A stretch of 28,552 bases of DNA from Gaertneriomyces semiglobifer (lineage: Eukaryota; Chytridiomycota; Chytridiomycetes; Spizellomycetales; Spizellomycetaceae). The DNA lies in the NCBI GenBank assembly GCA_025558075.1, contig JAHLKF010000058.1:1-28552 (forward strand), read 5' to 3'. The notes under the pieces were generated by a model. The model had not been told where the DNA came from, ran no database searches, and was given only the letters and a program-made list of their open reading frames with translations. Each line of letters begins with the position of its first letter. Within the stretch, counting starts at the first letter, position 1. Shown piece after piece: positions 1 to 28,552 of the stretch. Position numbers and translations under genes: made by a program.

Positions 1-3000
1 GCTGTAACTCGGATGCGCGGCACATCTTTAATGGACGGCCACCGCATACTTGGAGAAATCCTTTTTTCAAAGCCGAAAAGTGCGGCTGAACGATGGTGTT
101 CACGTAATGGTCGATAAATAGTCGAACGTACTCCTCCCGAGTTTCGTTGGTAACCAGGATGTTATCGCCGTTATGAATTAATGGGAACGTTTTCACGGTC
201 CCGTAAAAGTCGTATGAGGTTTCGAAGGTGCGGCAGAAAATATCCGCAACGTCGCCATTTTCCCATTCTAGTAATGAACGCAAACCGCGTCCAAGCGTAG
301 GCCATGCCACGGTAAAGTCGTCTAAGGTGACGGATTCGTCTAAAAGTTTCTTGTACATCAAGGGAGGGAAGTGGGTATTGAGCATTATCCCATTATAAAC
401 CGCCAACCCAATAATAATGCCAACAAGCTCATACTGGCGATGCGATTCCAGGGATGCTGGATTGATCCAACAGTAATGCGTTTCCTCATCCTCAATAAAG
501 ATGCCGTAGTCCGTGTCCAACAGCTTGCTCATGATGACTTGGAAAAACTCCTTTTGAACTCCGCCTTGATCCATGCCTTCCTCACCTCCTTCCACAAAGC
601 GGACTTTTAGCGGCTTCTTGAGGTCGCTCGCTTTCTTGGCAACTTGCGCAAGCACGTCCTCAACAAGGTGCTCTCGCCGTACTTCAAGAACAAGAAATGG
701 ATTGGTGGCATGCTTCAGTTCCCGCTCCAAACGGGTGACTGACGGGGATGACGGAAGGAATCGCTGAGCGTGTACCACTAGCGCTTGGTGAACAAAAGCA
801 TCTTCAAACTCCAGAGACATCTGCACCATGGCGTCAATTCTCATGATGCGGGTTTTGGCAATCGGATGGAATAGGAATGGATAGTTAAAAAAGGTAAACT
901 CTGGAATCACCGCCTGTGCATCGTCGGTCGTCGATGGGTCTCGTACTCTCTTCCAGATCTTGTATTCTTCTTTGAAGTTCAAGCGTCTACAGAGAGGTTC
1001 ATTGTAGAAAGCTGATAAGGGTATTTTGGCTTCTGACTCTGATAATTCGTTCGCAGCACAAAGCACTTGCAAAGCCTTGACGGATCCCACAAGGGCATTG
1101 TCCGGCTTCGGACTTGGATAAAAGTGGTCTACCAGGTATTGTTGAAATAGCTGAACGACTTTCGCAAACCTGGAAGGCTCGTATCTGGTGGACAGCCGAA
1201 CTGATAAGACTAGAGAGGTTTTGAATGCAAGGAGCGCAGCCTACCTCGCAAACCACTTAATCAAGATCTTCCTGGATGAGGTTGGGATGCCGCCAATGAT
1301 CAGGCACACATTCTTCAACAAAGAATCATGGGAATTCCGATTCGACAATAGAGGATTCTAAAACAGTAGAAACATTAGGCGATAACTGCTAGCGACCGTC
1401 AAACGATCGACTTACCTCCAAAACGATAAGCAAAACTCTTAGCCACAAGCGCGACCCGTCTAACAGGTGCCGGTTGAGAACGAGCCGCGCAAGCAAAATT
1501 TCTAAGGCATTGATCAATGGATTCATAAAAGTTTCCTTGGGCTCCAAATGCAGTATTAATTTGTAAGCTTCACCAACAGCGACAACGTCCAGTCCAGACG
1601 GATGTCGATGAAGCTGTGGCTCTGAGGCAGATTCGTTTTCATATAGAAAACTTCTTCCTAGTGCTTCTCCATCAGCAAATACCGTCCTCAGAACATTCAC
1701 CAGAAACTGCGGGTCGCCGCCAGTATCTTGATAGGTGGCCACAGCAGACCGTAATAGCGGTAGGTTGAGGTACTTTAAACTCAGCTCGGCAGCATCGGAG
1801 TGTTGCAGCGGTGTGCTTCTAGAGCGAACATGCGCTGAAGGAAAATGTAACGTAGAGAGGATCCCGGCATGGAATGGCGGATCATCCAGTGAGGCATCGG
1901 TAACAGGTTGCTCATGAGGCGTGTCACAAAAGGTTCTATCCGGCAAGTCCGTTGTACTTCTGCTTTTGACAAGCAAGGTATCTTTATGTTCGCCTTCGAC
2001 AAGTCTCTTTATCCATCGTAGGCCGAGAAAGGATCCGTCCTCTTTGGGCTCACGGAGGGATCTTCCCAGGACGACTTCAGATGGCAATTCGGGTTGCTGT
2101 TGGTCCAAAATTTCACTTGTAGAGTGCGAGCGTCGCATCGACGACGAGGCTTGTATTGGTGAGGTAAACAAGGATGCGAAGGGGGAGGAGGATAATAAAG
2201 ACGAAAGGAAAGGCTGCGATGGGGCGGGACCTGCAAGAGACGACGTTCGCGAAGTAGACACTTCGTCGTGCTCTTTAAATGCAGAAGACTCAGATGCTCC
2301 GCTCCCTAATCGGTGATCCTTCTCCAAATGATGCTGCCGGAAATGCGCGTCAGCTGATGACTTTTCCAGGTGGACTGACCGACTCATGCGAGGACTGTGT
2401 GTTGGACTCGCAAAGGGGGATAGCGACTCCGGAAGTGCAACATCCGCCGGTATCCTAGGACAGTAAAAAACCCGTGGTCGAGAGGCGAGTTGAACTGCCA
2501 TGATGGCGGCAGCTTCTGGAGTGAGTCGAGGGCCAATCTTACATGAGGCACATAACTTGTGTGTACATGTCGCGTCGCCGCAGCCTAGTGCCAGCTGGTA
2601 GTAATATCTAGATGATATCAAACGGTGAAAACAAACTCGCGAGGAATCGATCCAAATACATTGACCGCACCTTCTTACACATTTTTCAAACTTCTGCTTA
2701 GCTGCACTGATCGGACTGTTCGGCAAATCGTAGGATCTCCTCGGTGCAGCATCATGTAATGATCGACTGAGAATAGGGTCACTCAAAGCGGCTTTGAAAG
2801 AAGGCGAACGCGGAATAGACGTCGCTGAGGAGTGGTCAGCTACCGGTGAAGGAGGAGGAGGCGCAGTTGGCGCATATGGCAGAGGTACACCATGGCCCTC
2901 AATATTTATATCTCGTCCATGAATTGGGGGAGCTCCATTTAATTCCAGTGCGCTTTCCAAGGGAAGCTTAAATTTTGCCGTTCCAGGCGACGTGACGGCA

Positions 3001-3065
3001 CTTGGGCCAGCACTCCCCATCTCCACAAGCGCAGCTTGAGTTTCGGAGGTCCGTGAGGTTCCCAT
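1..3065 (-). CDS. HECT-type E3 ubiquitin ligase with N-terminal AZUL zinc finger (UBE3A/HUL4-like), 3 exons, 3' end outside window
   Basis: The model is complement(<1..1184, 1245..1357, 1416..3065). Both introns (1185-1244 and 1358-1415) have GT-AG ends and splicing keeps the frame. Residues about 122-205 form an AZUL-like zinc finger: cysteines at 129, 133 and 136, then the YYYQLALGCG motif with Cys162, 167, 172 and 175. This module is known from UBE3A and fungal HUL4-type ligases. Residues about 60-400 are Ser/Pro-rich and probably disordered. Exon 3 encodes the HECT N-lobe (FNYPFLF, then EGMDQGGVQKEFF, HYCWINP and GLAVYNG) and ends at VCGGRPLK, so the catalytic cysteine of the C-lobe lies beyond the left edge. 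By family, the enzyme accepts ubiquitin from an E2 as a thioester and transfers it to substrates. The start is the first ATG of the long exon; the divergent neighbour starts 1.2 kb away. Family assignment is firm; substrates cannot be told. Confidence 0.92.
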
Positions 3066-13860: not shown

Positions 13861-14321
13861 TGTTGCAGAGGATCCTGCTGAGGCTCTGGTCCTTCTAATA
13901 AGCTTATGTGTATTCAAGTCTAAGGTTCTAAGAGTACAGTTGAATGCCCGGCATAAGAGAACCACCCGACGGAAAAGCTCACGTGTCGGGTGTTAGGGCA
14001 CCCAGTCACATGGGTCACGTGCTCATGGGAACATGACGCACGTGTATGCGCTGATATGGATAAGAACCCGTGTCATAGCGCGCGCCCTGGTTAGGGTATC
14101 CCTATGACGTGTATGTCACCGGGACCCCCTTACAACAACTCCCCCCTCCGTGCATGCACGACATTTCCTGCAAACTGCCCGACACCTTCAGCAACTGTTC
14201 AGTGCTTATTGTCAGTGTTCGACATCTTCAGCAGCTTGTCAGCAGTGTCAGCATTGTCAGCAACATGTCAGCAGTGTCAGACACCTTCAGCACCTTGTCA
14301 AACACTGTCATCAGCTTGTCA
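13861..14321 (-). mobile_element. Inverted 3' fragment of the large copia family: LTR (13861-14137) plus 3' internal end
   Basis: Positions 13861-14137 are the reverse complement of the 276 bp LTR at 18438-18713, from TGTTGCAGAG to CTTACAACA, with scattered differences and one base of length difference. Positions 14138-14321 are the reverse complement of the 3' internal end of the large element: the polypurine tract (GGGGGGAG on the minus strand), the GTGCATGCACC segment and the run of GACANNCTGCTGACA units. The fragment stops inside those units, next to a different repeat at 14322. The rest of that copy is missing, so this is a 5'-truncated or rearranged relic in the opposite orientation to the other copies. 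Confidence 0.85.
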
Positions 14322-14571
14322 TGTAGCGGGTTTAGACTTCCGCTCGTAATAAGTAGAAGTATATAGACGCGCTAGTACCAGGGTTAGAGCTATCTTAGTC
14401 AGCCAAGTCATGTGATATAATTTCTGTTGTCGCTTAAGTCAGCGGGGCCTATAAGAGGACCGCGCGGACTTATGCGACGAAGATCAGGCAGACATAGATC
14501 CAGAGAGAGAATACAAGGTTGTACTCATATCTATGAATCCCGTCGCATCTGAACGAGTAAGACATCCGGCA
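14322..14571 (+). repeat. Possible LTR of a second, unrelated retrotransposon family
   Basis: This segment starts TGTAGCGGG and ends ATCCGGCA, so it has TG...CA ends, and it holds a TATA-like CCTATAAGAGG at about 14449-14459, the layout of a Pol II LTR promoter. It is unrelated to the two copia LTR types nearby. No second copy, primer site or target duplication is visible in the window, and the right end was hit by a solo LTR, so its boundaries are uncertain. Confidence 0.35.
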
Positions 14572-14576
14572 GTTCT

Positions 14577-14781
14577 TGTTGTAATAGGATCCCGGTGGCA
14601 TACACGCCATTGGGGTTACCCCGTTATCGGTAACTGCTATGTCAGCACTGCCCTAGGTCACATGATCTTTTCCGTCGGGAAGCGCTTAACGCAACTGTCA
14701 GTTTAGAACTTAGAATCTTAGACTTGAGAGATAACAGAGCTTATAAGAAGGATAAGAGCATCAGCAGGTTCCTCTGCAACA
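14577..14781 (+). mobile_element. Solo LTR, copia subfamily A (205 bp), target duplication GTTCT
   Basis: The 205 bp run from TGTTGTAATAGG to CTCTGCAACA matches both LTRs of the small element (17178-17382 and 18005-18209) with few differences. GTTCT directly precedes it at 14572-14576 and directly follows it at 14782-14786, a 5-bp target duplication as expected for copia integrase. An intact duplication around a single LTR indicates loss of the internal part by recombination between the two LTRs after insertion. Confidence 0.93.
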
Positions 14782-14786
14782 GTTCT

Positions 14787-15650
14787 AAGACCAGTGACTG
14801 ATCATCCTGCCCCCTTAGAATCAGCAGTCTTAGAAGTTTTCCGACGCCTCTCATCCCTAGCCCTGCAGGCATCACCACATCTATTATACCGCCGGCGGAC
14901 ACTTAGATGTCCGGCTCTTAACAAAGGAGATCATTAGGAGCGGAGTAATCCTCTTGGAAACCCTACCGTCCGATCATAATCCTTCTACAGAGTGTTCTGC
15001 TGTTCTGTGTAGGAAAACCTGTACCCACCTTTGCAGGCATTCCTGTCATTCCGGGAAGTTCTGACATTGTTGGCAGCTGCATCTGGACAAATGAATATAA
15101 GAAGTGGTTCCAAAAGAGATGTTTAAAACATCCTTTGTTTTTTGACAGTAAATTCAAGCAAGGCCACAACGTGATTACCCCTCTCAACCCAGGACGGCAG
15201 AAAAAAACATATTCGCCGCCAAATCCACCCCGAGGAGTGCCGCTCGCACGCCCAAGGGTGAACTGTCCCAGGCCCAATCACAGCGCTTCCGTCAGGATCA
15301 GTTTTCGAGGTGTAGCACGTCAAACATGCAAAAGAGCATCTCAACCCAGGACGGCGGAAAAAAACGTATTCGCCGCCAAATCCACCCCGAGGAGTGCCAC
15401 CCGCACGCCCAAGGGTGAACTGTCCCAAGCCCGATCACAGCACTTCCGTGTGGATCAGTTTTCGACAGTGCTTTCAATGCAGCCTGACATGACCTTGCAG
15501 AAAAAGACGCACCTCAATCCAAGTGGCTTACGTGCGACGTCGACCCGGAACAACATCGACCATTGAAAATGGAAGATCACATGTAGAATCCACTGTAAGG
15601 AGGGCATACTTGCTTCGGACAAAGGAAACCCTACGCAGATATTTGTAGTC
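14787..15650. other. Decayed repeat-like sequence containing a degenerate direct duplication
   Basis: No intact gene is supported. A plus-strand frame is open from about 14960 to the TGA near 15566 and reads protein-like before the duplication (for example WTNEYKKWFQKRC at about 15090-15125), but it has no convincing start and belongs to no family I know. The duplication at 15182-15466 shifts frame between its copies, which suggests a broken gene or transposon remnant. Confidence 0.4.
15182..15466 (+). repeat. Imperfect direct duplication of about 125-130 bp
   Basis: A unit starting CTCAACCCAGGACGGC and running through CGCCGCCAAATCCACCCCGAG to GATCAGTTTTCGA occurs at about 15182-15312 and again at about 15338-15466. 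The copies differ by scattered substitutions, mainly transitions. About 25 bp separates them. The two copies fall in different reading frames relative to the surrounding open frame. Confidence 0.8.
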
Positions 15651-16682: not shown

Positions 16683-17475
16683 CTATTTATAGGAGCTTTC
16701 CGTCGCCTCCTTGTGCTTTCTCTTGGGCGCCGTTTTCTTACTCTCGGAAATTACCCTATGTACTTCCGAACCTTGTGCGCGCCGCTCCTTAACTCCTAAG
16801 GTTTCGAGTGCAAGCAGGCGTCGCTCCTTAACGTCAGAACCCTTGCGATGGTCTCCATAGTATTTATTTTTTGCTATCAAACCTGCGGGTGTGTTTCGGA
16901 GGTGCAGATCTTGTTCTTGTTTTGTGTTAATTATGTTAGCAGTTGAGGCACGGTCTCCGCACCGTTCCCTTGAGGTTCTGAGATTGCGGTCCTGGGATCC
17001 GCGACATCCCCCTTCGTAAAGAAGGGCCGCCTTGATGCTGGTTCAAAGTATCAAGGGCCCTTTGACATTGGGATCGTCCCAGTCGGGTTCCCTGACTTGA
17101 TGGTCGAGTACGGCCACTAACCTTGCAGCTCCCGCAGCGTCCTTGCACAAAACACCCACCCAGTCTCGAGTCGGATGTGTTGTAATAGGATCCCGGTGGC
17201 ATACACGCCATTGGGGTTACCCCGTTATCGGTAACTGCTATGTCAGCACTGCCCTAAGTCACATGATCTTTTCTGTCGGGAAGCGCTTAACGCAATCGTC
17301 AGTTTAGAACTTAGAACCTTAGACTTGAGAGATAACAGAGCTTATAAGAAGGATAAGAGCATCAGCAGGTTCCTCTGCAACAGGTTATGAGCCCCGGCAT
17401 CAACAGCTGCCTGCTTATGCTCTGCCTCTCAGTCTCTGGGTGGATCTGCCCGTTATTGACAGTTTCCGCCTGCAC

Positions 17476-17735
17476 CGTTAATCCCCCTGCCAGCGATTAA
17501 CGACGCCCGACACCGTTGATCCCCCTGCCTGCGATCAACGACGACTGCTATTGAACACCCTGCCTGTGTTCAACTGCTTACACCCCCGGACCGTTGATCC
17601 CCCTGCCAGCGATTAACGACGCCCGACACTTATTGATCCCCCTGCCTGCGATCAACTGCTTACACCCCCGGACCGTTGATCCCCCTGCCTGCGATCAACG
17701 ACGACTGCTTATTGAACACCTTGCCTGTGTATAAC
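17476..17735 (+). other. Array of about seven stem-loops in the leader of the small copia element
   Basis: Between the primer site and gag the sequence repeats an imperfect palindrome of type CGTTGATC-CCCCTGCCTGC-GATCAACG. Units lie at 17476-17502, 17514-17540, 17551-17573, 17592-17618, 17633-17655, 17674-17700 and a weaker one at 17712-17734. Stem sequences vary while pairing is kept: GTTAATC/GATTAAC, GTTGATC/GATCAAC, TTGAACAC/GTGTTCAA, and a G-T wobble in the fourth unit. The loop core CCTGCC is constant, with a preference for CCCCTGCC(T/A)GC in the GTTGATC class. Confidence 0.8.
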
Positions 17736-17746
17736 ACTTTTTTAAG

Positions 17747-18061
17747 ATGGCTCGCTCGACCCGCATTGCCAAGGAGGAATTCTCGGCCCCCGACAACCCT
17801 CCGTCACTGTTCGCTGAACGACTGCCAAAACTGGAATCCGACGCCGTGTGCCTCACGTACATATGCGGCCTCAAACCGTCTGTTCGTGACCGCATTCGCA
17901 ATCGAATTGCCGCTGACAAGCAGACACTTGACGTCTTACAAGCTGTCGCCCTGGAACTGGATGCATCTGTGTACCGAAAGGTCGTGTATGCACCGAGGGG
18001 GGAGTGTTGTAATAGGATCCCGGTGGCATACACGCCATTGGGGTTACCCCGTTATCGGTAA
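17747..18061 (+). pseudogene. Internally deleted gag of the small copia element
   Basis: The frame starts with the same MARSTR-AKEEFSAPDNPPSLFAERL segment as the Gag of the large element, skips about 120 residues, resumes at a segment matching LPNMDSDDVCLTYICGLKPS, and stops matching after DASVY. It then continues through the polypurine tract into the 3' LTR. The zinc knuckle, protease and everything downstream are absent. The frame is still open for 104 codons, so a short Gag-derived protein could be made, though nothing shows that it is. Confidence 0.8.
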
Positions 18062-18437
18062 CTGCTATGTCAGCACTGCCCTAAGTCACATGATCTTTTC
18101 TGTCAGGAAGCGCTTAACGCAACCGTCAGTTTAGAACTTAGAACCTTAGACTTGAGAGATAACAGAGCTTATAAGGAGGATAAGAGCATCAGCAGGTTCC
18201 TCTGCAACAGGATGTGCTACTCCTGTGACTCCAATTTGCAAGGTTCGGGTGCACTGAACGGGGACTAGGTTTGTGTAGGCCGCGTGCCAGGCTGCTTGAG
18301 CAAGACTGTAGCTGGCTTTGTAGGGATTGTGGGTCTCGGTGTTCCTCCAGAGGGTGTCCGCAGCCTTATATCAGGCCTCTAGCTTCTTGGCAATGGTGGC
18401 CACCCATTCTGTTATGACTGCTTGCTTGTCATGATCT

Positions 18438-18713
18438 TGTTGTAAGGGGCTCCCGGTGACATACACGTCATAGGGATACCCTAACCAGGGCGCGCGCTAT
18501 GACACGGGTTCTTATCCATATCAGTGCATACTCGTGCGTCATGTGCCCATGAGCACGTGACCCATGTGACTGGGCGCCCTAACACCCGACACGTGACCTT
18601 TTCGTTGGGTGGTTCTCTTATGCTGGGCATTCAACTGTACTCTTAGAACCTTAGACTTGAATACACATAAGCTTATTAGAAGGACCAGAGCCTCAGCAGG
18701 ATCCTCTGCAACA
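18438..18713 (+). repeat. 5' LTR of the large copia element (subfamily B, 276 bp)
   Basis: It has TGTTG...CAACA ends. It shares its outer ends and a CTTAGAACCTTAGACTTGA segment with the 205 bp subfamily A LTRs but differs in the middle. Its full-length relative lies inverted at 13861-14137. Confidence 0.9.
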
Positions 18714-18855
18714 GGTTATGAGCCCCTGGCATCGATAGCTGTCACCTGCTTATCCTCTGCCCTTCAGTCTCCGGGTGGAACGGCCCGTTACCGACGATTC
18801 CTCACTTGCCCGAGCGATCACGCTGTTTTTCCCGACATACGACGCTCCCGACACC

Positions 18856-18954
18856 GTTAGTCCCCCTGCCAGCGATTAATGACGCCTGACTGCCATTGAT
18901 CCCCCCGCCTGCGATCAACGACAACTGCTTATTGAACACCCTGCCTGTGTTCAA
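18856..18954 (+). other. Stem-loops in the leader of the large copia element
   Basis: Three units correspond to those of the small element: GTTAGTC/GATTAAT at 18856-18880 (with two G-T wobbles), TTGATC/GATCAA at 18896-18918, and TTGAACAC/GTGTTCAA at 18932-18954. Loops again contain CCTGCC (CCCGCC in the second). The array is shorter than in the small element, and sits just before the Gag start codon at 19006. Confidence 0.75.
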
Positions 18955-19005
18955 CGACAACTGACCCTTATTGCACCTTGCCTGTGTATAACACCTTTTT
19001 TTTAG

Positions 19006-20502
19006 ATGGCCCGCTCGACCCGCAGTGCCAAGGAGGAATTCTCGGCCCCCGACAACCCTCCGTCACTGTTCGCTGAACGACTGTTAACCGACACGCTTAA
19101 GAAAATCACCCCGTTCGACGGCAATCCCCAGGATGCCGCCCCCCGGCTGTTGACCTTCATCCGCTCCATCAACATGATTCACACCTTACGCCCCGATCTA
19201 ACTGAGGAGGACCTTTTCTTAGTCGCTGTCTGCAATCTCCGCGACCATGCCCTTACATGGCTGGAAGAGTGGAACCGCTCTGCCGCAAAAGCCGCCGGTA
19301 TTACTCAGTGGAACCCCCTCCATCGTGCGCTCTATCAACGCTTCATTCCCGCTGCTTATCTGGACTCTCAACGCCTTGCTCTGCTAAACCTCACTCAAAC
19401 CGGTACCGTCGGCGAATACAACTCTGCTTTCGAGAAAATTCGCTTAACCCTGCCGAACATGGACTCTGACGACGTTTGCCTTACTTACATTTGCGGTCTC
19501 AAACCCTCGGCTCGTGACCGCATTCGCAATCGAGTTGCCGCTGACACCCAGACCTTTGACGCCTTACAAATTGCCGCCCTGGACTTGGATGCGTCTGTGT
19601 ACACGAAACCTCGAACTCCCGGCACTCCTGAAGCTTTTGCCGCTGCCGCGGCCACGCACCCCCGTCGCCGTCCCAGGCCGGCGGCCCGTCCCTGTGACAT
19701 CTGCACCCAAGGAACCCACTATGTTCGTGACTGTCCCCTTGTCATTGACGCCAAGAAACGCGCTCAGTCCCGCCCGGCCGCACATGCCGCTGAACTTGCA
19801 CACGACGACGAGGACCCCGCCCCGCCCGACTCCGACGCTGACACCGACTCCGATCCCGAGGCCTTCCTTGTCTTATCGACTGATCGTGACGCGTCGCACT
19901 CCATCGCTCTCGATTCGGGCGCCACACACAGCATTATCCGTGATCGCTTTCTTCTAACGGAATTCCAAGCTTTTCCCTCGGCCCGACAAATCTCCGGCAT
20001 TGGCACGTGCGCTGCTTACGGCAAGGGAACCTTAATCATCAACACACGTCATGGTTTACTTAAGCTTACTGACGTGCTCTATGCTCCCGAATGTCCGCGG
20101 AATCTGCTCTCTTTCGCATCATTGGCCCAGTCGCGTTATGCCTTAGATTTCTCGGCTGATCTTAGTGCCGGGTGGATTACTCATCGCAAGTCGGGTGCTC
20201 GTGTAGCTGATGTCATACGTCACAATAAACTTTATTTTATTGCCGGGTACACAACCGCCTCTCCGGCTGAATATGAAGCCTACACCAGTCATCCCCGCCG
20301 CAGGTCCGCACGTACCGCGCGTCGCCCATCCCGGTACACCCACGATTCGTCCGTGACTGCGCCCGGCCGCTGCCGTCACTGCGCCTCCGATGGCACAGCA
20401 ACTTCCCGCGTCCGACACGGTGGCACAGCACTTTTCGACAAATCGACCAGAATCGACCAATTCGACCGAGTCGACACCTCCGACACCTGCGATTGTCGAT
20501 GA
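19006..20502 (+). CDS. Copia Gag and protease (ORF1)
   Basis: This 498-codon frame begins with a copia-type Gag core (LLTFIRSINM, ALTWLEEW, YICGLKPSARDRIRNRVA). A zinc knuckle of the CX2CX4HX4C form follows at 19693-19734 (CDICTQGTHYVRDC), and an acidic linker after it. The aspartic protease active site DSGATHS starts at 19912, with a flap-like GIGTCAAYGKG. The last part is the pre-integrase region (LTDVLYAPECPRNLLS). By family Gag forms the virus-like particle and the protease cuts the polyprotein. The frame ends in a Thr/Ser/Arg-rich linker, where the integrase part continues in the next frame. A single Gag-Pol frame is usual for copia elements, so this break is probably a mutation. Confidence 0.9.
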   Translation: MARSTRSAKEEFSAPDNPPSLFAERLLTDTLKKITPFDGNPQDAAPRLLTFIRSINMIHTLRPDLTEEDLFLVAVCNLRDHALTWLEEWNRSAAKAAGITQWNPLHRALYQRFIPAAYLDSQRLALLNLTQTGTVGEYNSAFEKIRLTLPNMDSDDVCLTYICGLKPSARDRIRNRVAADTQTFDALQIAALDLDASVYTKPRTPGTPEAFAAAAATHPRRRPRPAARPCDICTQGTHYVRDCPLVIDAKKRAQSRPAAHAAELAHDDEDPAPPDSDADTDSDPEAFLVLSTDRDASHSIALDSGATHSIIRDRFLLTEFQAFPSARQISGIGTCAAYGKGTLIINTRHGLLKLTDVLYAPECPRNLLSFASLAQSRYALDFSADLSAGWITHRKSGARVADVIRHNKLYFIAGYTTASPAEYEAYTSHPRRRSARTARRPSRYTHDSSVTAPGRCRHCASDGTATSRVRHGGTALFDKSTRIDQFDRVDTSDTCDCR

Positions 20503-23416
20503 CACTGTTTATTCACCAAATATAACGCCTACTTCACATGCTCTCTCTGACCCTGCTCCTAGTCCTGCCGACTCTGTCACTCTTAAGCTCTGGCATCTAC
20601 GTTTCGGTCATCCGAGCGCTGCTAATCTCCAACTAGCGCTTCGAACATATGGCATTTCCGCGCCCGGCACCCTCGCCACCTGCGTTGGGTGTCGTGTCGC
20701 TAAGTCCCGACGCTCTCCATTCAATCATGACAACCCCCACCCTGCAACCCGAGTCCTTGGTCGCATCCACAGCGACGTGCAGTCAGTCGAGCACGACACA
20801 CTCGATCACTGCCCATACCTTGTCACGTTCATCGACGAACTTACTCGATACGCACATGTCGCCATGATCAAACATAAACACGATGTCCCCGCCGAATTCC
20901 ACGCTTTCCGCCAACATGCTGAAAACCTCCATGGCTGCAAAATCCTTGAACTGCGATGCGACAACGGCGGCGAATATCTGAGTCATGCTCTTGTCGGCGA
21001 TCTCCGGCAGCACGGCACCCGGGTTCGTCCCACCCACGCATACTCTCCGGCACAAAACGGTATCGCCGAGCGTTATAATCAGACGTTAATGACACAAACC
21101 CGGACGGTCATGCTGTCAAGTCACATACCTCAGCACTTGTGGGGGGAAATCGTCGTTGCTGTCAACTACCTCCGTCAGCGCACCCCGTCCCGCGCCATCG
21201 GCAATGCAACTCCATACGAAAAATGGCACGGTTCTCCCGCGGACGTGGCGAACCTGCGGGTCTTGTGGTCCGACGCTTATGTTCATATCCCCGTCGAACG
21301 CCGTCCCCATAAAAAGCTCGAACCTCGGGCCCGTCGCATGAAACTGATCGGGTACACTGACTCCACGGATTACCGTTTCTACGATCCCCTGACACAGCGC
21401 ATTCGTCGGTCTCGCGACGTCACGTTCGATGAAACCAACTATGTCGATCCTGCTCCCGACGCTCCCAATGATGAAGTTTTTGAAGTCGAGTACATTGTTG
21501 ATGAACGGATCGCACCGACGGGGGAGCATCAATGTTTTGTTAAGTACGTTGGGTATTCTGAACCTGAATGGAACGATGCGTTCAACTTACACGGCTTGCC
21601 CGTTGTTGATGAATATTTTGCTCGTAAGCATCGCTCCCCGGCATCTTCCTCCACGTCCCCTCCTACAGTCGAGGCCTTAGTAGCGTCCGCTCTGGACGGC
21701 CCCCTTGCCCGGGAACCCGTCACTTATAAGCAAGCGCTGCGCTCACCTGACTGTCATGCCTGTTAGCAGGCCATCGATAAAGAACTCCAATCCTTGCTCG
21801 CTAATCAGACCTGGATGCCCATCGACGCCTTGCTGTCCGACGCTTATGCCATCGACTCTAAATGGGTTTCCACGATTAAGCATCACACGGACGGTTCCAT
21901 AAAAAAGTACAAGGCCCGCCTTGTTGCCCGCGGGTTTACCCAGCGCCCGGGTCTCGATTTCAATGAAACCTATGCCCCGGTCGTCAAGTTCAGCACGCTC
22001 CGCCTGCTATTGGCTCTCTCTCAGCTCTTCGGCCTTGTCGTCCACCAAATGGATGTCCTCACGGCATTCCTGAACGCTGTAATCGACACCGACATTCATA
22101 TGCAACTCCCCGACGGGTCGTACGTTAAACTCCTACGTTCGATCTATGGGTTAAAGCAGTCACCGCGCTTATGGAACCAAACACTTGACACTTATCTGAA
22201 GTCCGTCGGTTTCCAACCCACGGTTCTCGACACCGCGCTGTACATTCGTCCCGTTGCCGGTGGCACACCTGACATCATTGCCCTGTACGTCGATGACCTC
22301 ACCATCTGCTCCACGACGGCCCGCATGCGGTCCATCAAGGACGGTCTTGCCCGGCGTTTCGCGATGGAGGACATGGGGGAGATTTCGTACATTCTCGGCA
22401 TTGAAGTCACACGCACTGCTGACACATTGACACTGAACCAAGGCAAATACATTGATGACATGCTCCTTCGCTATGGCCTTGCCGATGCCACATCTGTCAC
22501 TGTTCCACTGTCGCCCAGCTTATCGCTTGTCGCTGCCACCGACGACGACGTCCTGGCTGATCAAAAGCTTTATCAGTCAATAATTGGAAGCTTAATGTAT
22601 CTTACCATTGCCACGCGGCCCGATCTTGCCTTCGCAATCTCCAAACTGTCCCGTTTCCTGTCGAAACCCACTGAACAGCACTTGAGTGCTGCCCGCCGTG
22701 TCCTCCGCTATGTAAAAGGCACTCGCAATCTCAAGCTCTTGTATGGTCCTCGAGACGGGGGAGTATCCTCTCTACATGGTTATTCTGATGCCGATTTCGC
22801 TGCAAATGCCGAGAACCGACGCTCGACGTCGGCGTACCTCTTCTTGCTGAACGGAGGTGCTATTTCGTGGGCATCTAAGCTCCAGAACTGCACAGCACAA
22901 TTTACAGCAGAAGCGGAATACATTGCATTAGCTGAGGCCGCCAAAGAGGCAGTCTGGCTCCGTCGACTGATGATCGCGCTCCTCGAGCATTTTCCACGCA
23001 ATGACACCCAGAATTCCATCCTTCCCGGCACTGAACCCGGCACATATGGCGCTCTAACAGTGTACGAGGACAACCAGGCAGCCATCAAACTTGTCAACAA
23101 CCCTGTAAATCACAATCGCACTAAACACATCGATCTCCGTCATCACTTCATCCGCGAAAAGGTCCATCAGACCCAGGAAATCGCCCTCTGCTATGTGTCC
23201 ACTAACGACCAGCTGGCTGACGGACTTACCAAGGCCCTAGCTGCTCCTGCTCTGAATAGCATGCATCCTCGCATGGGTCTCCATACGTCCGACGCTTCTG
23301 ACAAGTTGCTGACAGCGCCCGACACTGCTGACAAGCTGCTGACAGTGCCTGACAAGGTGTCTGACACTGCTGACAGGTTGCTAACGATGCCTGACACTGC
23401 TGACAATAAGCACTGA
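20390..23416 (+). pseudogene. Copia integrase, chromodomain, reverse transcriptase and RNase H (ORF2, interrupted by TAG)
   Basis: Frame +2 opens after a TGA at 20354-20356 and overlaps ORF1, the same frame running to TGA at 23414-23416. It carries the HHCC zinc domain (LWHLRFGHP and CVGC), the integrase triad (D in HSDV at about 20773, D in RCDNGGE at about 20958, E in NGIAERY at 21068), a chromodomain at about 21475-21632, and RT with the YVDD box at about 22285. RNase H follows (SDADFAANAENRRSTS, AEAEYIAL, and HIDLRHHFIRE near the end). An amber TAG at 21764-21766 interrupts the frame at the RT N-terminus, where copia proteins usually have Trp, consistent with TGG to TAG. With the frame break before integrase, this copy should not make a full polyprotein unless suppressed. 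The tail after RNase H is a repeat. Confidence 0.9.
23285..23410 (+). repeat. Degenerate tandem repeat in the 3' end of copia pol
   Basis: Units of the form GACA-(A/G)GCTGCTGACAGTGCCTGACAC repeat several times and encode SDKLLTAPDTADKLLTVPD-like residues after the RNase H domain. The inverted fragment at 14138-14321 carries the same kind of array with a different unit order and number, so it expands and contracts between copies. Confidence 0.75.
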
Positions 23417-23476
23417 ACAGTTGCTGAAGGTGCCGGGCAGTTTGCAGGAAATGTCGTGCATGCACCGAGGGGGGAG

Positions 23477-23530
23477 TGTTGAAAGGGGGTCCCGGTGACA
23501 TACACGTCATAGGGATACCCTAACCAGGGC
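23477..23530 (+). repeat. Truncated 3' LTR of the large copia element
   Basis: The 54 bp from TGTTGAAAGG to CTAACCAGGGC match the start of the 5' LTR with two differences. At 23531 the match ends abruptly in the middle of the LTR. Confidence 0.9.
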
Positions 23531-23796
23531 ACGAGAGAAGGGGGTATGATAGTTTGTAACACCTTTTTCGGTATCGATAACGCAAAAGTGGGCGCGGCAG
23601 CGGAGTAAATTTCAATAGATTTCAATGGATTGCGATATATTTCATACGACGCGCGTCTTATTATGAAACAAACGGAAAGAATCGGAAATGTATGAAAGAT
23701 TCGTGAAAGAAATAAAGTTTGCATTGACGCGGGACCCACGGAGCCGGGAGAAGGTGACACCGAGTGAGCGGGGGTGACTCAGTTGAACACTACATA
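23531..23796. other. Junction segment between the truncated LTR and tRNA-Asp
   Basis: These 266 bases match neither the LTR nor any other part of the window. A run of roughly 10-bp phased units (ATTTCAATAG ATTTCAATGG ATTGCGATAT ATTTCATACG) lies at about 23610-23649. No gene is supported. The segment marks the breakpoint that removed the rest of the 3' LTR and leads into the tRNA. Confidence 0.5.
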
Positions 23797-23868
23797 TCCC
23801 AGATCGTATAGTGGTTAGTATCTCTTCTTGTCGCGGGGAAGGCCTGGGTTCGATTCCCAGTCTGGGAG
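23797..23868 (+). tRNA. tRNA-Asp (GTC)
   Basis: The 72-nt sequence folds as a cloverleaf. The acceptor stem TCCCAGA pairs with TCTGGGA, followed by discriminator G. The D-arm holds TAGTGGTTAGT (A box). The anticodon stem TCTTC/GGGGA (with G-T pairs) encloses loop TTGTCGC, anticodon GTC. The T-arm TGGGTTCGATTCCCA contains the B box GGTTCGATTCC. There is no intron and CCA is not encoded. No clear T-run terminator follows directly. The minus-strand RING gene ends only 24 bp downstream. Confidence 0.95.
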
Positions 23869-23892
23869 CTCCATCTGTTCTTCCATGTGGCA

Positions 23893-24348
23893 TTATTGTG
23901 GAAAGGCACCATGGAGACGAATGTGCGTGCTGAGAATGTTCACTCCACCGTCCAGCTTACACTGGACGCAGCACATATAGTCCTTATTGATGGTACGGAT
24001 AAAACAGTCTCTGCAGTAGAGATGGGAACATCCTGGAAGTTTCAAGAGACCGGCAACCTCGCTTTTACAAAGGCAACAGCAGACCGTTTCGACAGGGCGG
24101 CTTAGAATCGCCGAACAAAAAGGACCGCTGCATGCCATACTAGGAAGCGTAGCGACACAGCGGAGGTGGTAAAAGTGGTAACAATTGGTGTAGGCCCGAG
24201 GAGCGTCGGGGGAAATGGCTTTGAGACAGGCGGAACAACGGAGCAGCGACCTGGCACCTTTTGGAGTGGCGACGTAAGGTGGTGGAGGAGGAGGAGGAGG
24301 AGGGTGAGAAGAGGAAGAATCATCGTGAATAGTATTGTGATTGGCCAT
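23893..24348 (-). CDS. RING-finger protein, probable virus-encoded ubiquitin ligase
   Basis: From the ATG at 24348 the product has 151 residues; an in-frame ATG at 24399 would add 17 more, but the later one is preferred because the first would leave almost no room for a promoter and begins a hydrophobic stretch not followed elsewhere. A run of nine prolines lies near the N-terminus. The C-terminal half holds a canonical C3HC4 RING: CCLC, then CSHLYCRDC, then CVQC. A second Cys/His cluster (CSAC, NCYHFYHLRC, FC) precedes it, so the protein may have two zinc-binding modules. By family, RING proteins bring an E2 to a target for ubiquitin transfer. It is the last gene of the minus-strand viral-like block, intronless, with its TAA 24 bp from the tRNA. 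The family call is strong; the viral origin is inferred from context. Confidence 0.8.
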   Translation of the reverse strand: MANHNTIHDDSSSSHPPPPPPPPPYVATPKGARSLLRCSACLKAISPDAPRAYTNCYHFYHLRCVATLPSMACSGPFCSAILSRPVETVCCCLCKSEVAGLLKLPGCSHLYCRDCFIRTINKDYMCCVQCKLDGGVNILSTHIRLHGAFPQ

Positions 24349-24467
24349 GTTTGAGAGATGTGAGGCAGAGAACAGGAAATAGGAGAGCCTTTGCAGCATA
24401 AAAGCTTTCGCAAAAAATTTAAGGGGTAGTCAAACACAAACATTCATGTTCTAATTATGAAAGTGAG

Positions 24468-24851
24468 TCATACACATGTACTGTCGTGTTGAATCGCGTA
24501 TGTGTTTCCATTGGGACCTTGAACTTGAACTTTGAAGGTTGTCGGTAACACTTTCCAAACACTACCGTAAGGATAGGGGCGAGCGGTGTAGATACAATGG
24601 TCCCAGAAAAAGATCAATCGATTGAAGCGAGGATCAAGTGCTGCAAACAGGTGCAGTCCAACAGCAGAATCAAGAGAGTGGAGAAGGCGTGTAAATGCAA
24701 AAGAATCAGCATTCATGAAGCGACCACTCAAAGGTGTTTTGACAATAACAACGTGTCTATAAGCAAACGCTGCAATAGGGTCGGTGACTCTGAGGGTATG
24801 CTTGAGGGCATCGTCGCAAGCATCATCGGCTTCGGTTTTACGCTTGACCAT
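24468..24851 (-). CDS. Small orphan protein A, paralogue of the upstream gene (127 residues)
   Basis: The ATG at 24851 is chosen because the product then starts MVKRKTEADD, parallel to MGKRQAQDRP of its neighbour, and a TATA box lies about 70 bp upstream. The two proteins align over most of their length: AYRHVVIVKTPLSGR against VARHIDFVKHPLDGR, LLHSLDSAVGLHLF against IVHTLDAITKLQLF, LIFFWDHCIYT against ILFWAHAVYS, and at the end GPNGNTYAIQHDSTC against DRQGNIYMLKHHNIC. Compared with its neighbour it lacks about 40 residues before the C-terminal motif. No known family, membrane segment or Cys cluster is visible. It is intronless and sits in the compact minus-strand block, so it is read as a viral accessory protein. 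Confidence 0.75.
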   Translation of the reverse strand: MVKRKTEADDACDDALKHTLRVTDPIAAFAYRHVVIVKTPLSGRFMNADSFAFTRLLHSLDSAVGLHLFAALDPRFNRLIFFWDHCIYTARPYPYGSVWKVLPTTFKVQVQGPNGNTYAIQHDSTCV

Positions 24852-24916
24852 GAGTGAGAATGAGAACTGAAATAACACTATAGAAATGTTTCGAGGGAGT
24901 GGCGAACAGTGTAGAG

Positions 24917-24925
24917 CTTTTATAT
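24917..24925 (-). promoter_or_regulatory. TATA box of orphan gene A
   Basis: On the minus strand the sequence reads ATATAAAAGC, about 70 bp upstream of the ATG at 24851 and about 30 bp past the stop of the preceding gene. Similar motifs at similar spacing precede the two neighbouring genes. Confidence 0.55.
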
Positions 24926-24954
24926 TTTTTACATCGTTATTTAAAACCATGGTC

Positions 24955-25482
24955 TTATTGTTGGATGTATCCGACAGGTTGTTCAACACAACAGATATTA
25001 TGGTGTTTCAACATGTAAATATTCCCTTGACGATCTTGTGCTTGAATGCGACGCCTATGCGGTTTAATCTTCCAACACATGACTTCCAACGGTTTGGTGG
25101 GACAGTCGTCGTTGGAAATTTTGTCGATTCTTCTAGCAAGTTCGAGTTCATCTGGAAACCCTTCGATGTACAACGGACACAATGGAATATGTTCGTTGAT
25201 CCATGTGTATCGTTTTCCGACCGAGTAGACAGCATGGGCCCAGAAGAGGATACGTCGTCCAATACCGCGATCGAAATAGGTGAACAACTGGAGCTTGGTG
25301 ATTGCATCGAGGGTGTGAACAATTCGGACATCGTAGAAGAGTTCGTTGGAGACTCGCCGACCATCTAACGGATGTTTGACAAAATCAATATGTCTTGCTA
25401 CAAAGCGTTGAATGTTGTCGTAAGCCGAAACAGTTCGTTTCAACGTGTGGTCTGGTCTGTCTTGGGCTTGTCGTTTGCCCAT
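24955..25482 (-). CDS. Small orphan protein B, paralogue of the downstream gene (175 residues)
   Basis: The ATG at 25482 is preferred: upstream codons in the same frame have no ATG, and a TATA box (TATAAAAAGG on the minus strand) sits about 60 bp before it. The start overlaps the 3' end of the VLTF3-like gene by 43 bp in another frame. The core LDAITKLQLFTYFDRGIGRRILFW and the C-terminal QGNIYMLKHHNIC are shared with the next gene. An Arg/Lys-rich segment (KIKPHRRR) precedes the C-terminal motif. No known domain is recognised. Its stop (TAA, 24955-24957) lies only about 30 bp before the TATA box of the following gene. Tandem duplication followed by divergence is the simplest explanation of the pair. 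Confidence 0.75.
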   Translation of the reverse strand: MGKRQAQDRPDHTLKRTVSAYDNIQRFVARHIDFVKHPLDGRRVSNELFYDVRIVHTLDAITKLQLFTYFDRGIGRRILFWAHAVYSVGKRYTWINEHIPLCPLYIEGFPDELELARRIDKISNDDCPTKPLEVMCWKIKPHRRRIQAQDRQGNIYMLKHHNICCVEQPVGYIQQ

Positions 25483-26276
25483 TGTAAGACAGGATTCTGC
25501 TCCTTCATGTTTGAAAGTAGTTGGGAGAGTTGCTTCCTTTTTATACTTGTACGAGCCCAAGGGATCCGATAGGGTGGTAGGATAGTATGCCGATGAAGTA
25601 GCATGAGCACAACGTACTGGACCTTGGGAAACCGTTGGCGACCAAGCGATCCTTGTTTTTTGAGGTAATCAAAAGTCCGATGAAGTTGAAAGGCATCTTC
25701 CAGAACAAGTTGCACCTTATGGTACGGAACGTTCCACCGTGGACCACCAAGCCGGGAAATCAGTAGGGGTATAGCGGGATAAAGATGAGGGAGCTTGCGT
25801 TGCTTTAGGTACTTTCGAATAACTTCATAGATATTGTGAGACATCAACAGGGATCCGTGGATGTGTTTCTTTAAGTCACTTTCCAATGTGGGCGGCAGTT
25901 TGGTGGTCGCATGTCCTAGAAGCTGAAAGAAGGTTCTACGTATTCGATAAAGTCGATCATAGTGGTGTGTACGTTGGCGGTTCATTTTCCATTGTTGTTC
26001 GTCTTGATAATACATAACCATGGGATGCGCAGTTTCCTCATCTTCGACAACACAGTACCGGTGGTAACCAAAAGTTTCAGGGTCGCACCAAGCAATCTGG
26101 GAGGACGTGAATATTGGAAGATGATCGTCGTCTGAGTCATAATAGGCCGGCTCAGAGGGTAACAATGGTGGGGAACGTGGCGCAGGATCATTAGGAACGT
26201 TATGGGCCGAGTTCCATTCATCAGGACTGACCTCGATCCCCAACTCGGCAAGCATGGACAGGTATGTGTTGGACAT
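25440..26276 (-). CDS. VLTF3-like protein (poxvirus late transcription factor 3 type, viral)
   Basis: A 278-residue intronless frame starting at a good ATG (26276). Residues about 105-265 follow the pattern of VLTF3-like proteins of nucleocytoplasmic large DNA viruses, adintoviruses and polinton-like viruses: HYDRLYRIRRTFFQLLGH, then IYEVIRKYLKQRKLPHLY followed directly by PAIPLLISRLGG, a later RFPKVQYVVLMLLHRH, and a C-terminal Lys-rich helix. By family these proteins drive late viral transcription. The N-terminal 100 residues are acidic and proline-rich (PYYDSDDDHLPIF-like) and not recognised; I see no zinc-ribbon there. A TATATAAAG element lies about 55 bp upstream. Recognition is by pattern from memory of the family and is not certain; a profile comparison (PF04947) would decide. 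Confidence 0.6.
   Translation of the reverse strand: MSNTYLSMLAELGIEVSPDEWNSAHNVPNDPAPRSPPLLPSEPAYYDSDDDHLPIFTSSQIAWCDPETFGYHRYCVVEDEETAHPMVMYYQDEQQWKMNRQRTHHYDRLYRIRRTFFQLLGHATTKLPPTLESDLKKHIHGSLLMSHNIYEVIRKYLKQRKLPHLYPAIPLLISRLGGPRWNVPYHKVQLVLEDAFQLHRTFDYLKKQGSLGRQRFPKVQYVVLMLLHRHTILPPYRIPWARTSIKRKQLSQLLSNMKEQNPVLQWANDKPKTDQTTR
25536..25547 (-). promoter_or_regulatory. TATA box of orphan gene B, inside the VLTF3-like coding region
   Basis: On the minus strand the sequence reads GTATAAAAAGG, about 60 bp upstream of the ATG at 25482 and within the coding sequence of the preceding gene. Confidence 0.55.
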
Positions 26277-26329
26277 GTTTTGGAAAAAGCTCGGTAACCC
26301 GGAAAAGAGATGAAAAAAGTGTATCGCCC

Positions 26330-26348
26330 TTTATATATTTTTTATTCA
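26330..26348 (-). promoter_or_regulatory. Overlapping stop codon, poly(A) signal and TATA box between fibre and VLTF3-like genes
   Basis: On the minus strand the fibre gene ends TGAATAAAAAATATATAAAG. The TGA stop (26346-26348) is overlapped by AATAAA, a poly(A) signal, and TATATAAAG follows within 10 bases, about 55 bp from the ATG of the VLTF3-like gene. All three signals fall in about 19 bp, far tighter than in the host genes of this window. Confidence 0.6.
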
Positions 26349-28552
26349 ACCAACTTTAGTTACTATAAACCAGGACATGGTAACATCATCGAGTGCGAAC
26401 GGTGCAGCGTCAGGTATATCCGTAGTAATCGTAGTATAAGGGTAAAGCATTCTGAACATAACGGTGTTCTGGTAATTTGTCACCTCCTTTATATGAACAC
26501 ATATATCGAATATGAGTGACTGGTTAGATCCAGCCGTAGTAGTCGTCACTCCAGATTCTTTGAATGTCAACTGATTGCTTTGACCCAACAACGTCGAAAC
26601 TAAATAGGTACCATTATCGGCGCGCACAACATTGTTTGCCTGTAAACGCCACTCGTAGGTAGTGGATTGGTTACGTAGTGGTGATTTCCAAGTAAGGTGT
26701 ACTTTGAAAGCGTACACACCCGTTGGTAACGTCACATAACCTAAACGGATGCTTCCCGATGGTGCGGACATATATGTTACTGCAGGTACGAAATCCCCTG
26801 TCGGAACACCTGATATCGCTTCGAAAGCGAAATACCCCAGTGTTCGGTCCGAAGGAGGTGCCCAAGTGTAGTTGGTAAATCGAAAGACTGCGGAATTCTG
26901 AGTCGTAGCCACAGGGAGAACAGGTTTACCAGTGAGCTCCTCATAGGACAGCGTATTTTTGAAAGCCAAATCGCCCAGTTGTCGGTTTTGAACACGAAAC
27001 TCGTTGGAGACGTGAGCCTTCCCACAATGAACAGTATCCACAACATTCAACGATGTATCCAAAGAGATACCGTTTTTCGATATCAAGTCTCCGGTGAACT
27101 TGACCATCTTCAAAATCGCATCGCCATATGTTTGTGCAGCGTTCGTGCGCAAAATAACCAATCTCAAATAGGAACATGGTTGGGCACTGCTCACAGGCAC
27201 TGTGGAGGTCTGACTTGGGCTCAGTTGAGCGTCCGCCACAGAGAGTAGAACATTCCAAATAACACCGTTGATTGATCCGCATAGAGTATAAGCAGCAGGC
27301 ACTCCGATTGTCACCAACGTAAAAGTGAGCTTCTTACATAAGATGGGTTCTGGCAATCGTAGTTGAAACCATTCACCTTTTAGATCTCCTTGGTTACTTG
27401 GGGTTGTTGCATTCAATACATATGCTCCTGTAGCTGCATTGTATGCGGTGGTGACTGTCCTCCACGAAGGTGAACCTCCGTTCCCAGCATATCCAAAACC
27501 ACCTCCAGGACCCGTATTTACGTAGAACGAACTACTCGCTGACGCCTCATAAGTACCGTTCCCATAGGGTAAATCAACGAATGTCGAAGTATGGGTGGAT
27601 TGAAATGTTGCCGGGGGGAAGACCAAGTCTCGATTGTCCCAGTTGGAAAGTGTTCCCAACGGGAACTTGGCCTGGTTAACCGTAATAGCGCCATTGTTGT
27701 CCAAAGTAGCAAGTGTCGGTTTGTTGATGATATCGTCGCTATTCCAGTCCAGACTCTGTTTAAGTGCCAGGGCACCTATGGGCACACCCTTCACTTTCAG
27801 GTTACCCAACATGTTCACATCCCCCGTCCCAGGTTCCACGGCAATTCCGCCGCTCACATTGTCGGACTGTAGTAGCAGAGACCCTCCACCGGTATTACGC
27901 AACATACAGGTGTTCGGTCCACCGTTGCCAGTGTATATAGATGAATTGTATTGGAGAAAAGCCCCCTTGGTGGTGTCGTTAGCAAGGCGTACTTGTGTAA
28001 AAGCATTCGCATGCTTGAATCGGTTGGTGCATATCATTTGAACCAATGTGGTATTCACAGCCTTGCTGCCAACGTTCATGGAACCTGTTGTTTCAATGTT
28101 GGTGTATTCCATGTAATGCGTGGTATCGTTGGTTGCAATGGTAACTGGCGATTTCGGAACATAGTATTCAATGTAACCTTGATTCACACCGTTGCTCAAC
28201 AAAGTCAAGTGTCCGAGACTTAACCAAGGTGTGTTGGTCACATTGGTGAATGTGTACAGAAGCACTCGTGGTGACGCAACTAATTCGGATCGGGTGTTAC
28301 CGACGTATACTGAAAGCTCGACCGTGTTGGAGATCGTCTGACGCACGATACGGAAATAGAGATGGCGCGGATCCGTTAGAGTGTGGGTTGCAGAAGCCAC
28401 TTTTGTCGGCTCACTGTTAAAACGTGTATATACATCCACCACACGATTGGCCCGGAAGAGGATATTGATTTGCGGTGGTCGGCTCCCAGGTTGGTCGTCA
28501 ACTTCGTACGTATCAAACATACGAATAAGGACACCAAACCATCTGGTGCTTT
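26346..28552 (-). CDS. Large fibre-like structural protein with discoidin-like and C1q/TNF-like parts, open at the right edge
   Basis: A 724-codon frame from the ATG at 28520; it stays open to the window edge (ten more codons), so the protein may start outside. Residues 1-115 are beta-rich and may be a lectin-like sandwich. Residues 115-250 are Asn/Gly/Thr-rich like phage tail fibres. The linkers WNSDDIINKPTL (259-270) and SYEELTGKPVLP (525-536) are of the kind found in trimeric fibre proteins of phages and large DNA viruses. Residues about 315-478 resemble a discoidin (F5/8C) fold (GEWFQLRLPEPI, then SYLRLVILRTN). Residues about 546-724 resemble a C1q/TNF-type jelly roll (GYFAFEAISG, LPTGVYAFKVHLTW). 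The role inferred is virion surface attachment to a host cell. There is no transmembrane segment. Domain calls are by eye; a structure prediction would test them. Confidence 0.65.
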   Translation of the reverse strand, partial: STRWFGVLIRMFDTYEVDDQPGSRPPQINILFRANRVVDVYTRFNSEPTKVASATHTLTDPRHLYFRIVRQTISNTVELSVYVGNTRSELVASPRVLLYTFTNVTNTPWLSLGHLTLLSNGVNQGYIEYYVPKSPVTIATNDTTHYMEYTNIETTGSMNVGSKAVNTTLVQMICTNRFKHANAFTQVRLANDTTKGAFLQYNSSIYTGNGGPNTCMLRNTGGGSLLLQSDNVSGGIAVEPGTGDVNMLGNLKVKGVPIGALALKQSLDWNSDDIINKPTLATLDNNGAITVNQAKFPLGTLSNWDNRDLVFPPATFQSTHTSTFVDLPYGNGTYEASASSSFYVNTGPGGGFGYAGNGGSPSWRTVTTAYNAATGAYVLNATTPSNQGDLKGEWFQLRLPEPILCKKLTFTLVTIGVPAAYTLCGSINGVIWNVLLSVADAQLSPSQTSTVPVSSAQPCSYLRLVILRTNAAQTYGDAILKMVKFTGDLISKNGISLDTSLNVVDTVHCGKAHVSNEFRVQNRQLGDLAFKNTLSYEELTGKPVLPVATTQNSAVFRFTNYTWAPPSDRTLGYFAFEAISGVPTGDFVPAVTYMSAPSGSIRLGYVTLPTGVYAFKVHLTWKSPLRNQSTTYEWRLQANNVVRADNGTYLVSTLLGQSNQLTFKESGVTTTTAGSNQSLIFDICVHIKEVTNYQNTVMFRMLYPYTTITTDIPDAAPFALDDVTMSWFIVTKVG

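Follow-up and report, generated by a model that had tools for sequence, protein, structure and literature searches.

Introduction

An integrated polinton-like virus (PLV) in the chytrid Spizellomyces punctatus, together with the PLV group to which it belongs, and PLV genes in Allomyces have been described (Bellas & Sommaruga 2021, PMC7805220), and this S. punctatus group is the closest known kind to the element reported here. The stretch of DNA that we analysed, hereafter the window, is the whole of contig C58 (28,552 bp) of Gaertneriomyces semiglobifer (Chytridiomycota), a spizellomycetalean chytrid whose genome comprises 20.86 Mb in 66 contigs (the other contigs are likewise given as C numbers). 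With a probability of about 0.87, positions 23533-28552 of the window are roughly the left fifth of an endogenous PLV of ~23-24 kb, one of a swarm of copies in this genome and a PLV of a new variety.

Both hosts belong to the same family, Spizellomycetaceae, and the architecture of major capsid protein (MCP), candidate minor capsid protein (mCP) and packaging ATPase is shared with the S. punctatus group (PMC7805220). A protein match from S. punctatus, SPPG_00918, is 39% identical to the element polymerase over the searched region, and no S. punctatus protein occurs among the 120 listed of 603 MCP matches. In contrast, the Gaertneriomyces family possesses a VLTF3-like gene, whereas neither "VLTF" nor "late transcription" appears in PMC7805220; a chitinase, reported in 52% of the S. 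punctatus group (PMC7805220), was not recognised in the Gaertneriomyces open reading frames (ORFs) examined; and the single copy in S. punctatus is matched here by many copies that target the long terminal repeat (LTR) of a copia retrotransposon.

More distant systems resemble the element in part. Polintons and adintoviruses (Polintoviricetes) share its viral-type family-B polymerase, terminal inverted repeats (TIRs), jelly-roll capsid genes and packaging ATPase, but the element differs from them in having VLTF3, in having no recognised RVE integrase or protease, and in lacking target duplication at the LTR site. Mriyaviruses share VLTF3, a small genome and an MCP structurally near nucleocytovirus capsids, yet they are 35-45 kb long and encode RuvC and VLTF2 (PMC11253617), whereas the element is shorter and has a polinton-type polymerase and TIRs. 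The PLVs of Oxyrrhis marina are likewise endogenous, with TIRs, a pPolB (protein-primed family-B polymerase) domain and no target-site duplications, but differ in carrying a recognisable tyrosine recombinase and a helicase-pPolB fusion (PMC12721341); "VLTF" is absent from the text of that paper.

A 2024 paper stated that VLTF3 cannot be detected in viruses other than Nucleocytoviricota and took conserved VLTF2 and VLTF3 as diagnostic of affinity to that phylum (PMC11253617); VLTF3 also serves as a giant-virus marker, for example in the BEREN tool (PMC12638062). A preliminary description of the window took VLTF3 to be typical of viruses of the polinton-like or adinto-like kind, a premise that is not upheld. 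Fungi were excluded from the genome set of Bellas et al. 2023 (PMC10120064), and according to the abstract of PMC10640383 no double-stranded DNA virus infecting fungi was known; in the open-licence PubMed Central (PMC) literature we found no title on Gaertneriomyces PLVs, on VLTF3 in a PLV or on LTR-targeting PLVs. What takes the element beyond a routine PLV is the presence of VLTF3 in a family with polinton-type replication and TIRs, and the position of its termini at one point of the copia LTR.

Results

Termini and copy number

The left end of the element lies at 23533 and the contig stops within the fibre gene. TIRs, which the preliminary description had proposed looking for and which are expected of a PLV (10-41 kb, with TIRs), are present: the window terminus aligns over 237 columns with the inverted end at C1:740146, the first 79 bases being identical. 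The C1 copy (723759-740146; 16.4 kb) has termini at both ends but is internally deleted, and the full size of ~23-24 kb is an estimate from two copies. An 80-base terminus query identified 33 termini across the genome.

The five minus-strand ORFs of the preliminary description are all present (Table 1), and they are not chance frames, since the same ORFs recur in sister copies. Its reading of a polinton-like or adintovirus-like virus in a fungal genome is supported in the main: the host is indeed a fungus, and the polinton-like half is borne out by a family with TIRs, MCP, packaging ATPase and polymerase, while the adintovirus-like label finds neither an RVE integrase nor an adenain-like protease in the ORFs examined.

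Capsid, packaging and replication genes in sister copies

Capsid, ATPase and DNA polymerase B genes had been predicted to the right of the contig end, and they are present in sister copies. Past the fibre gene in C7, on the opposite strand, lie genes for a lysine-rich protein, the MCP and an mCP candidate, followed by an HNH endonuclease gene (minus strand) and the ATPase gene; in the C1 copy the polymerase gene and other ORFs are present as well. No Pfam match over cut-off was obtained for six ORFs in C1 and C47 (194, 212, 215, 251, 417 and 173 aa).

The double jelly-roll MCP expected of a PLV is found in stop-free frames of 499 aa (C32), 519 aa (C1) and, in a second lineage, 546 aa (C45). 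The solved folds that best match the MCP model are nucleocytovirus capsids, namely Paramecium bursaria chlorella virus 1 (PBCV-1; score 23.9), faustovirus (23.5), African swine fever virus (21.6) and vaccinia D13 (20.9), whereas further nucleocytovirus entries, at 14-19, span the scores of Sputnik (16.9), mavirus (16.2) and PRD1 (16.4), and adenovirus hexons score about 12-13. The closeness of the modelled MCP to nucleocytovirus capsids is suggestive only, the comparison having been made without an equivalent PLV control. Among the BFVD rows for the MCP are proteins of Tetraselmis virus S1 and of an adintovirus. The 346-aa gene that follows, the mCP candidate, matches DUF5901 at 21.8 bits, and at 32.7 bits in the second lineage (cut-off 26.4).

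The packaging ATPase matches Pox_A32 at 29.4 bits (cut-off 22.8), a profile that is not wholly specific, with matches in 2 of 14 control genomes. The polymerase, a DNA polymerase B as in polintons and adintoviruses, is intact in C47 (1,209 aa; DNA_pol_B_2 126.8 bits) and would act by protein priming; DNA_pol_B_2 gives 14 match rows in the genome and matches in 0 of 14 control genomes. The HNH protein matches PHROG 59 at 1.7e-22, whereas its Pfam HNH_3 score (18.8) does not reach the cut-off of 24.8. None of the ORFs examined was recognised as an RNA polymerase subunit. The combination that marks Nucleocytoviricota including mriyaviruses (VLTF2, RuvC and a genome of at least 35 kb) is lacking, as no VLTF2, RuvC or superfamily 3 (SF3) helicase was recognised in the element ORFs examined (Pfam) and the element is too short. 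Taken together, the family is shown to have a predicted gene set of fibre, MCP, mCP candidate, packaging ATPase, viral/organellar-type family-B polymerase, HNH endonuclease and VLTF3. This gene set, the TIRs, the copy number and the LTR junctions are the surest points of the analysis.

Beyond this family, Pox_A32 gives 32 match rows in the genome, 31 of them over cut-off. Because only about 7 of the 32 can be assigned by place to the present element family, further PLV families are suggested in this chytrid. Short matches above cut-off to Capsid_N, a capsid domain of nucleocytoviruses, at C8:2516-2773 (33.6 bits) and C15:12122-12355 (26.8 bits, with an internal stop) are possible traces of another virus; C8 also carries 69 residues of an MCP that share 93% identity with the second lineage.

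The VLTF3-like protein

The VLTF3-like gene occurs at 11 loci (14 match rows), nine of them at 96-100% identity save one 40-residue piece in C32 at 90%, and the remaining two, in C45 and C49, forming the second lineage at 56-59%. Pox_VLTF3, a profile with matches in 0 of 14 control genomes, reaches 28.3 bits in these two, above the cut-off of 25, whereas the third listed locus, C63, falls under it at 24.1 bits. The VLTF3 of Nucleocytoviricota, including mriyaviruses, is thus represented here, over the Pfam cut-off in C45 and C49 only. Among 21 aligned homologs, 7 match the profile at E<=0.01 (best 8.8e-7) and 14 do not. The AlphaFold model has a mean predicted local distance difference test score of 76.6 and a predicted template modelling score of 0.50, and 22 of its first 34 BFVD rows are giant-virus and poxvirus entries that bear the name VLTF3 or late transcription factor. 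Each of these lines is modest alone; together they make membership of the VLTF3 family sound.

Less sure than the points listed above is the presence of VLTF3 and the polymerase together in a single intact genome. In its favour are C45, where the two matches lie within 12 kb, the gene order in C38, and homologs on metagenome contigs of equal size.

Selection, intactness and mosaicism

Frames had been described as intact, which holds for many copies but not for others, where genes are broken: MCP and HNH in C7 (both frame-broken), MCP in C38, VLTF3 in C5 and C32, and the polymerase in C1 (the protein intact in C47, here frame-broken) and C39. Of the 11 VLTF3 loci, the 7 with intact genes of the same length were used to measure selection; the ratio of non-synonymous to synonymous substitution rates (dN/dS) is 0.06-0.32 in 20 of 21 pairs, the remaining pair, C7 and C63, giving 0.88 with just 2 synonymous differences. 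For MCP, C1 and C32 differ with dS 0.160 and dN 0.018 (dN/dS ~0.11). These ratios show purifying selection on VLTF3 and MCP.

The two orphan genes were called paralogues in the preliminary description, and the alignment confirms it (27% identity over 168 columns, E 3e-20). Orphan 1 has a dN/dS of 0.13-0.22 in the five computable of 6 pairs (4 copies), while orphan 2 bears no sign of purifying selection, with 3 synonymous and 31 non-synonymous differences summed over 6 pairs (4 copies). Each of the 5 differing orphan 2 pairs (window, C7, C25, C63) has 0 or 1 synonymous and 5 to 7 non-synonymous differences, a pattern that could reflect positive selection or a second constrained frame. A plus-strand ORF of 160 codons (24886-25368) overlaps orphan 2.

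The fibre gene is present, but its 724-aa ORF (26346-28520) is incomplete, cut by the contig end; corresponding open frames are 1,688 codons in C25, where the frame continues, 1,580 in C32 and 1,482 in C28, and because these are longer the ATG at 28520 is internal. Av_adeno_fibre is weakly matched by the N-terminal portion of the C25 frame (19.3 bits, cut-off 22.7). Copies are mosaic: C28 is 69% identical to the window in the RING gene, 78% in orphan 1, 94% in orphan 2 and 99% in VLTF3 and the fibre tip, while the stretch corresponding to the window fibre tip (26346-27700) is unmatched in C63, C5, C7 and C38, where other sequence replaces it beside a stem that is 86-94% conserved. By sequence, these would be exchangeable receptor-binding tips. 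Tips at 31-32% identity recur in large ORFs of C11, C24, C38 and C42.

At locus L097 (C47:36570-46569) the right half of the present element ends inside mCP, with other sequence beyond. A second ATPase match, at the same score of 28.6 bits, occurs in six contigs (C47, C19, C30, C34, C39 and C59) and lies 9.7-9.9 kb from the first in C19, C30, C39 and C47, suggesting a recombinant type of element that has another capsid module.

Integration site

Flanks were inspected for all 33 termini, and 12 of them, the window's included, abut one position of the copia LTR (GCGC^GCGC), in both orientations. Seven (C58, C1:723759, C63:789, C39, C6, C65 and C42) end in the first 56 LTR bases, with ...CAGGGC[AG]C at the junction, and five (C43, C12, C10, C63:7989 and C38:33886) end in the other side of the LTR, reversed, with ...GTCATAGCGC at the junction; the C10 LTR is a variant without an internal stretch. 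With left and right end types assigned from end identities and the position of VLTF3 or polymerase, 7 of the 12 termini fit one orientation of the element and 5 the opposite one. Unbroken LTR sequence at the site reads CCAGGGCGC GCGCTATGACA, and comparison of the two sides, taken from different copies, with this sequence indicates that no bases are duplicated or lost. Irrespective of LTR context, the 20-base site has 81 unbroken matches (<=2 mismatches) and a reversed control 0.

A second common site lies in copia gag (C7 and C30, to within 2 bases), and in C2 and C30 insertions lie inside other viral copies. Of the 31 termini scored, 29 have C at -3. Four unbroken sites were found in the window (GCGC^GCGC, GCAC^GTGC, GCAA^ACGC and GTGC^GTGC); because GCNN^NNGC fits three of the four, and only GCGC^GCGC and GCAC^GTGC are perfect palindromes, we infer rather than observe a symmetric site preference. 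The LTR-site termini are not all independent, as C65 and C42 look duplicated.

Features of the window

Intron-bearing host genes had been placed next to the virus, but its immediate neighbour is a copia retrotransposon (~18437-23532); AZUL and HECT matches of a host gene fall within 1-3065. Repeats, both direct and inverted, are dense at 17173-19083, 13861-14782 and 15182-15465, upstream of and inside the copia region, and consist of pieces of LTR and of other repeated units. The listed starts of the orphan ORFs are mechanical, and the likely ATGs further in were judged by eye from the paralogue alignment.

Table 1 Features of the window (contig C58)
Feature	Position	Strand	Evidence
Unbroken integration target CCAGGGCGCGCGCTATGACA in inverted copia LTR-related segment	14071..14090	-	
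5' LTR of copia element	18437..18713	+	direct repeat of 23477-23530; 97% inverted match to 13861-14138
Unbroken target site within copia 5' LTR	18485-18504		pattern match
Copia polyprotein in three ORFs: gag, integrase, reverse transcriptase	19006..23416	+	Retrotrans_gag, rve + SH3_retrovirus, RVT_2
3' LTR of copia element, interrupted after 56 bp by viral insertion (...CCAGGGCAC at the junction)	23477..23532	+	
Left TIR of virus (GAGAGAAGGGGG...)	23533..23758	+	83.5% over 237 columns to inverted end C1:740146
RING-type zinc finger protein, 168 aa	23893..24399	-	zf-RING_11 19.8 bits, cut-off 27; recurs in copies
Orphan 1, paralogue of orphan 2; 173 aa, probable start around 24851 (judged by eye)	24468..24989	-	no Pfam match
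Orphan 2, paralogue of orphan 1; 201 aa, probable start around 25482 (judged by eye)	24955..25560	-	no Pfam or NCBIfam match
VLTF3-like late transcription factor, 278 aa	25440..26276	-	Pox_VLTF3 19.4 bits
C-terminal part of fibre gene, cut by contig end	26346..28552	-	frame open to end

Discussion

Several results weigh against an endogenous PLV with the full gene set. No single uninterrupted copy with every gene was found among those examined: C1 is without VLTF3, fibre and most of the orphans; C7 stops before the polymerase; C38 is interrupted; C45 has VLTF3 in two frames, a partial polymerase match and a different gene order; and C47, which has the intact polymerase, switches in its left part to other sequence inside mCP. 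The VLTF3-like call on the 278-aa protein stands in that Pox_VLTF3 is matched, but the window copy, at 19.4 bits, is under the Pfam cut-off of 25, and its model has no BFVD match at E<=0.001 (best 1.7e-3). Homologs number 21 for VLTF3, 603 for MCP and 270 for the polymerase, a disparity that may mean that only some members of the group have VLTF3. A viral_contigs search confirmed no relatives. In the element ORFs examined, neither an RVE integrase nor a tyrosine recombinase was recognised; Pfam, NCBIfam or PHROGs gave no rve match, the sole rve being that of the copia element, and no match to an adenain-like cysteine protease, although a very divergent form of either is possible. Polinton or adintovirus membership is for these reasons not established.

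Integration into the fungus of a piece of giant-virus or mriyavirus DNA (Nucleocytoviricota) would account for VLTF3, for the nucleocytovirus capsids that head the solved-fold matches of the MCP and for the two short Capsid_N matches elsewhere in the genome. We give this origin scarcely any credence, as the elements are TIR-bounded, ~23-24 kb long and equipped with a polinton-type polymerase, no VLTF2, RuvC or SF3 helicase was recognised in the examined ORFs, and the many copies have near-identical ends, two-TIR copies lying inside large host contigs (C1). Polymerase, TIRs, packaging ATPase and jelly-roll MCP would equally suit a classical polinton or adintovirus (pPolB, RVE integrase and adenain-like protease), but this is very improbable given that the element ORFs examined match neither rve nor cysteine protease and that the LTR site has no target duplication, where RVE integrases leave about 5-6 bp (PMC12220804). 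It is unlikely, if less so, that the family is a self-synthesising transposon without infectivity whose capsid genes are relics: the constraint on MCP (~0.11, C1 and C32) and on VLTF3 (0.06-0.32 in 20 of 21 pairs), the swapped fibre tips, and the location of 118 of the 120 listed MCP relatives (of 603) on other contigs, mostly metagenome, argue against relics, despite the high copy number, the insertions into the family's own copies and several broken genes.

The common LTR junction could also represent one insertion spread by segmental duplication rather than site-specific integration, since C1:740146 and C38:80768 have 192 identical flank bases in common and the C65 and C42 ends look similar. 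However, both element orientations occur at the same bond (7 and 5 termini), LTR flanks differ by up to ~17% between termini, the sequence beyond the LTR start differs among C58, C1 and C39, a second common site lies in copia gag (C7, C30, to within 2 bases), and 29 of 31 scored termini have C at -3, making duplication distinctly unlikely. An endogenous PLV that probably integrates at preferred sites is the reading that we retain.

For such a virus we propose a linear DNA whose replication starts at the TIRs and is protein-primed. VLTF3 would turn on late genes (capsid and fibre), its partner being host RNA polymerase II or, in a virophage-like manner, the transcription apparatus of a giant virus infecting the same cell; transcription may be borrowed from one or the other, since the ORFs examined include no recognised RNA polymerase subunit. 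The A32-type ATPase would package DNA into icosahedral particles with adenovirus-like fibres bearing exchangeable tips, and new copies would enter the chromosome at GCNN^NNGC-like sites, with the LTR site preferred, the cut being made either by the HNH protein that the element encodes or by a recombinase that escaped recognition, for which the 417-aa orphan (L086:903-2156) would be a first candidate.

Very little is known of DNA viruses in fungi, yet this chytrid carries a swarm of copies with many intact genes. Their exact LTR target, used in both orientations, offers a testable integration system without a recognised RVE integrase or tyrosine recombinase. The occurrence of VLTF3 in a small TIR-bounded family with polinton-type replication blurs the border of Nucleocytoviricota and bears on the origin of giant viruses, and marker-based surveys can therefore miscall such viruses. 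Rather unlikely, on our own estimate, is a broader proposition: that this fungal lineage joins polinton-type replication to a nucleocytovirus-type capsid and late-transcription module by deep ancestry, not recent capture, and persists by HNH homing to one palindromic copia-LTR site. If true, the step that led from polinton-like to giant viruses would have a living relative in this family.

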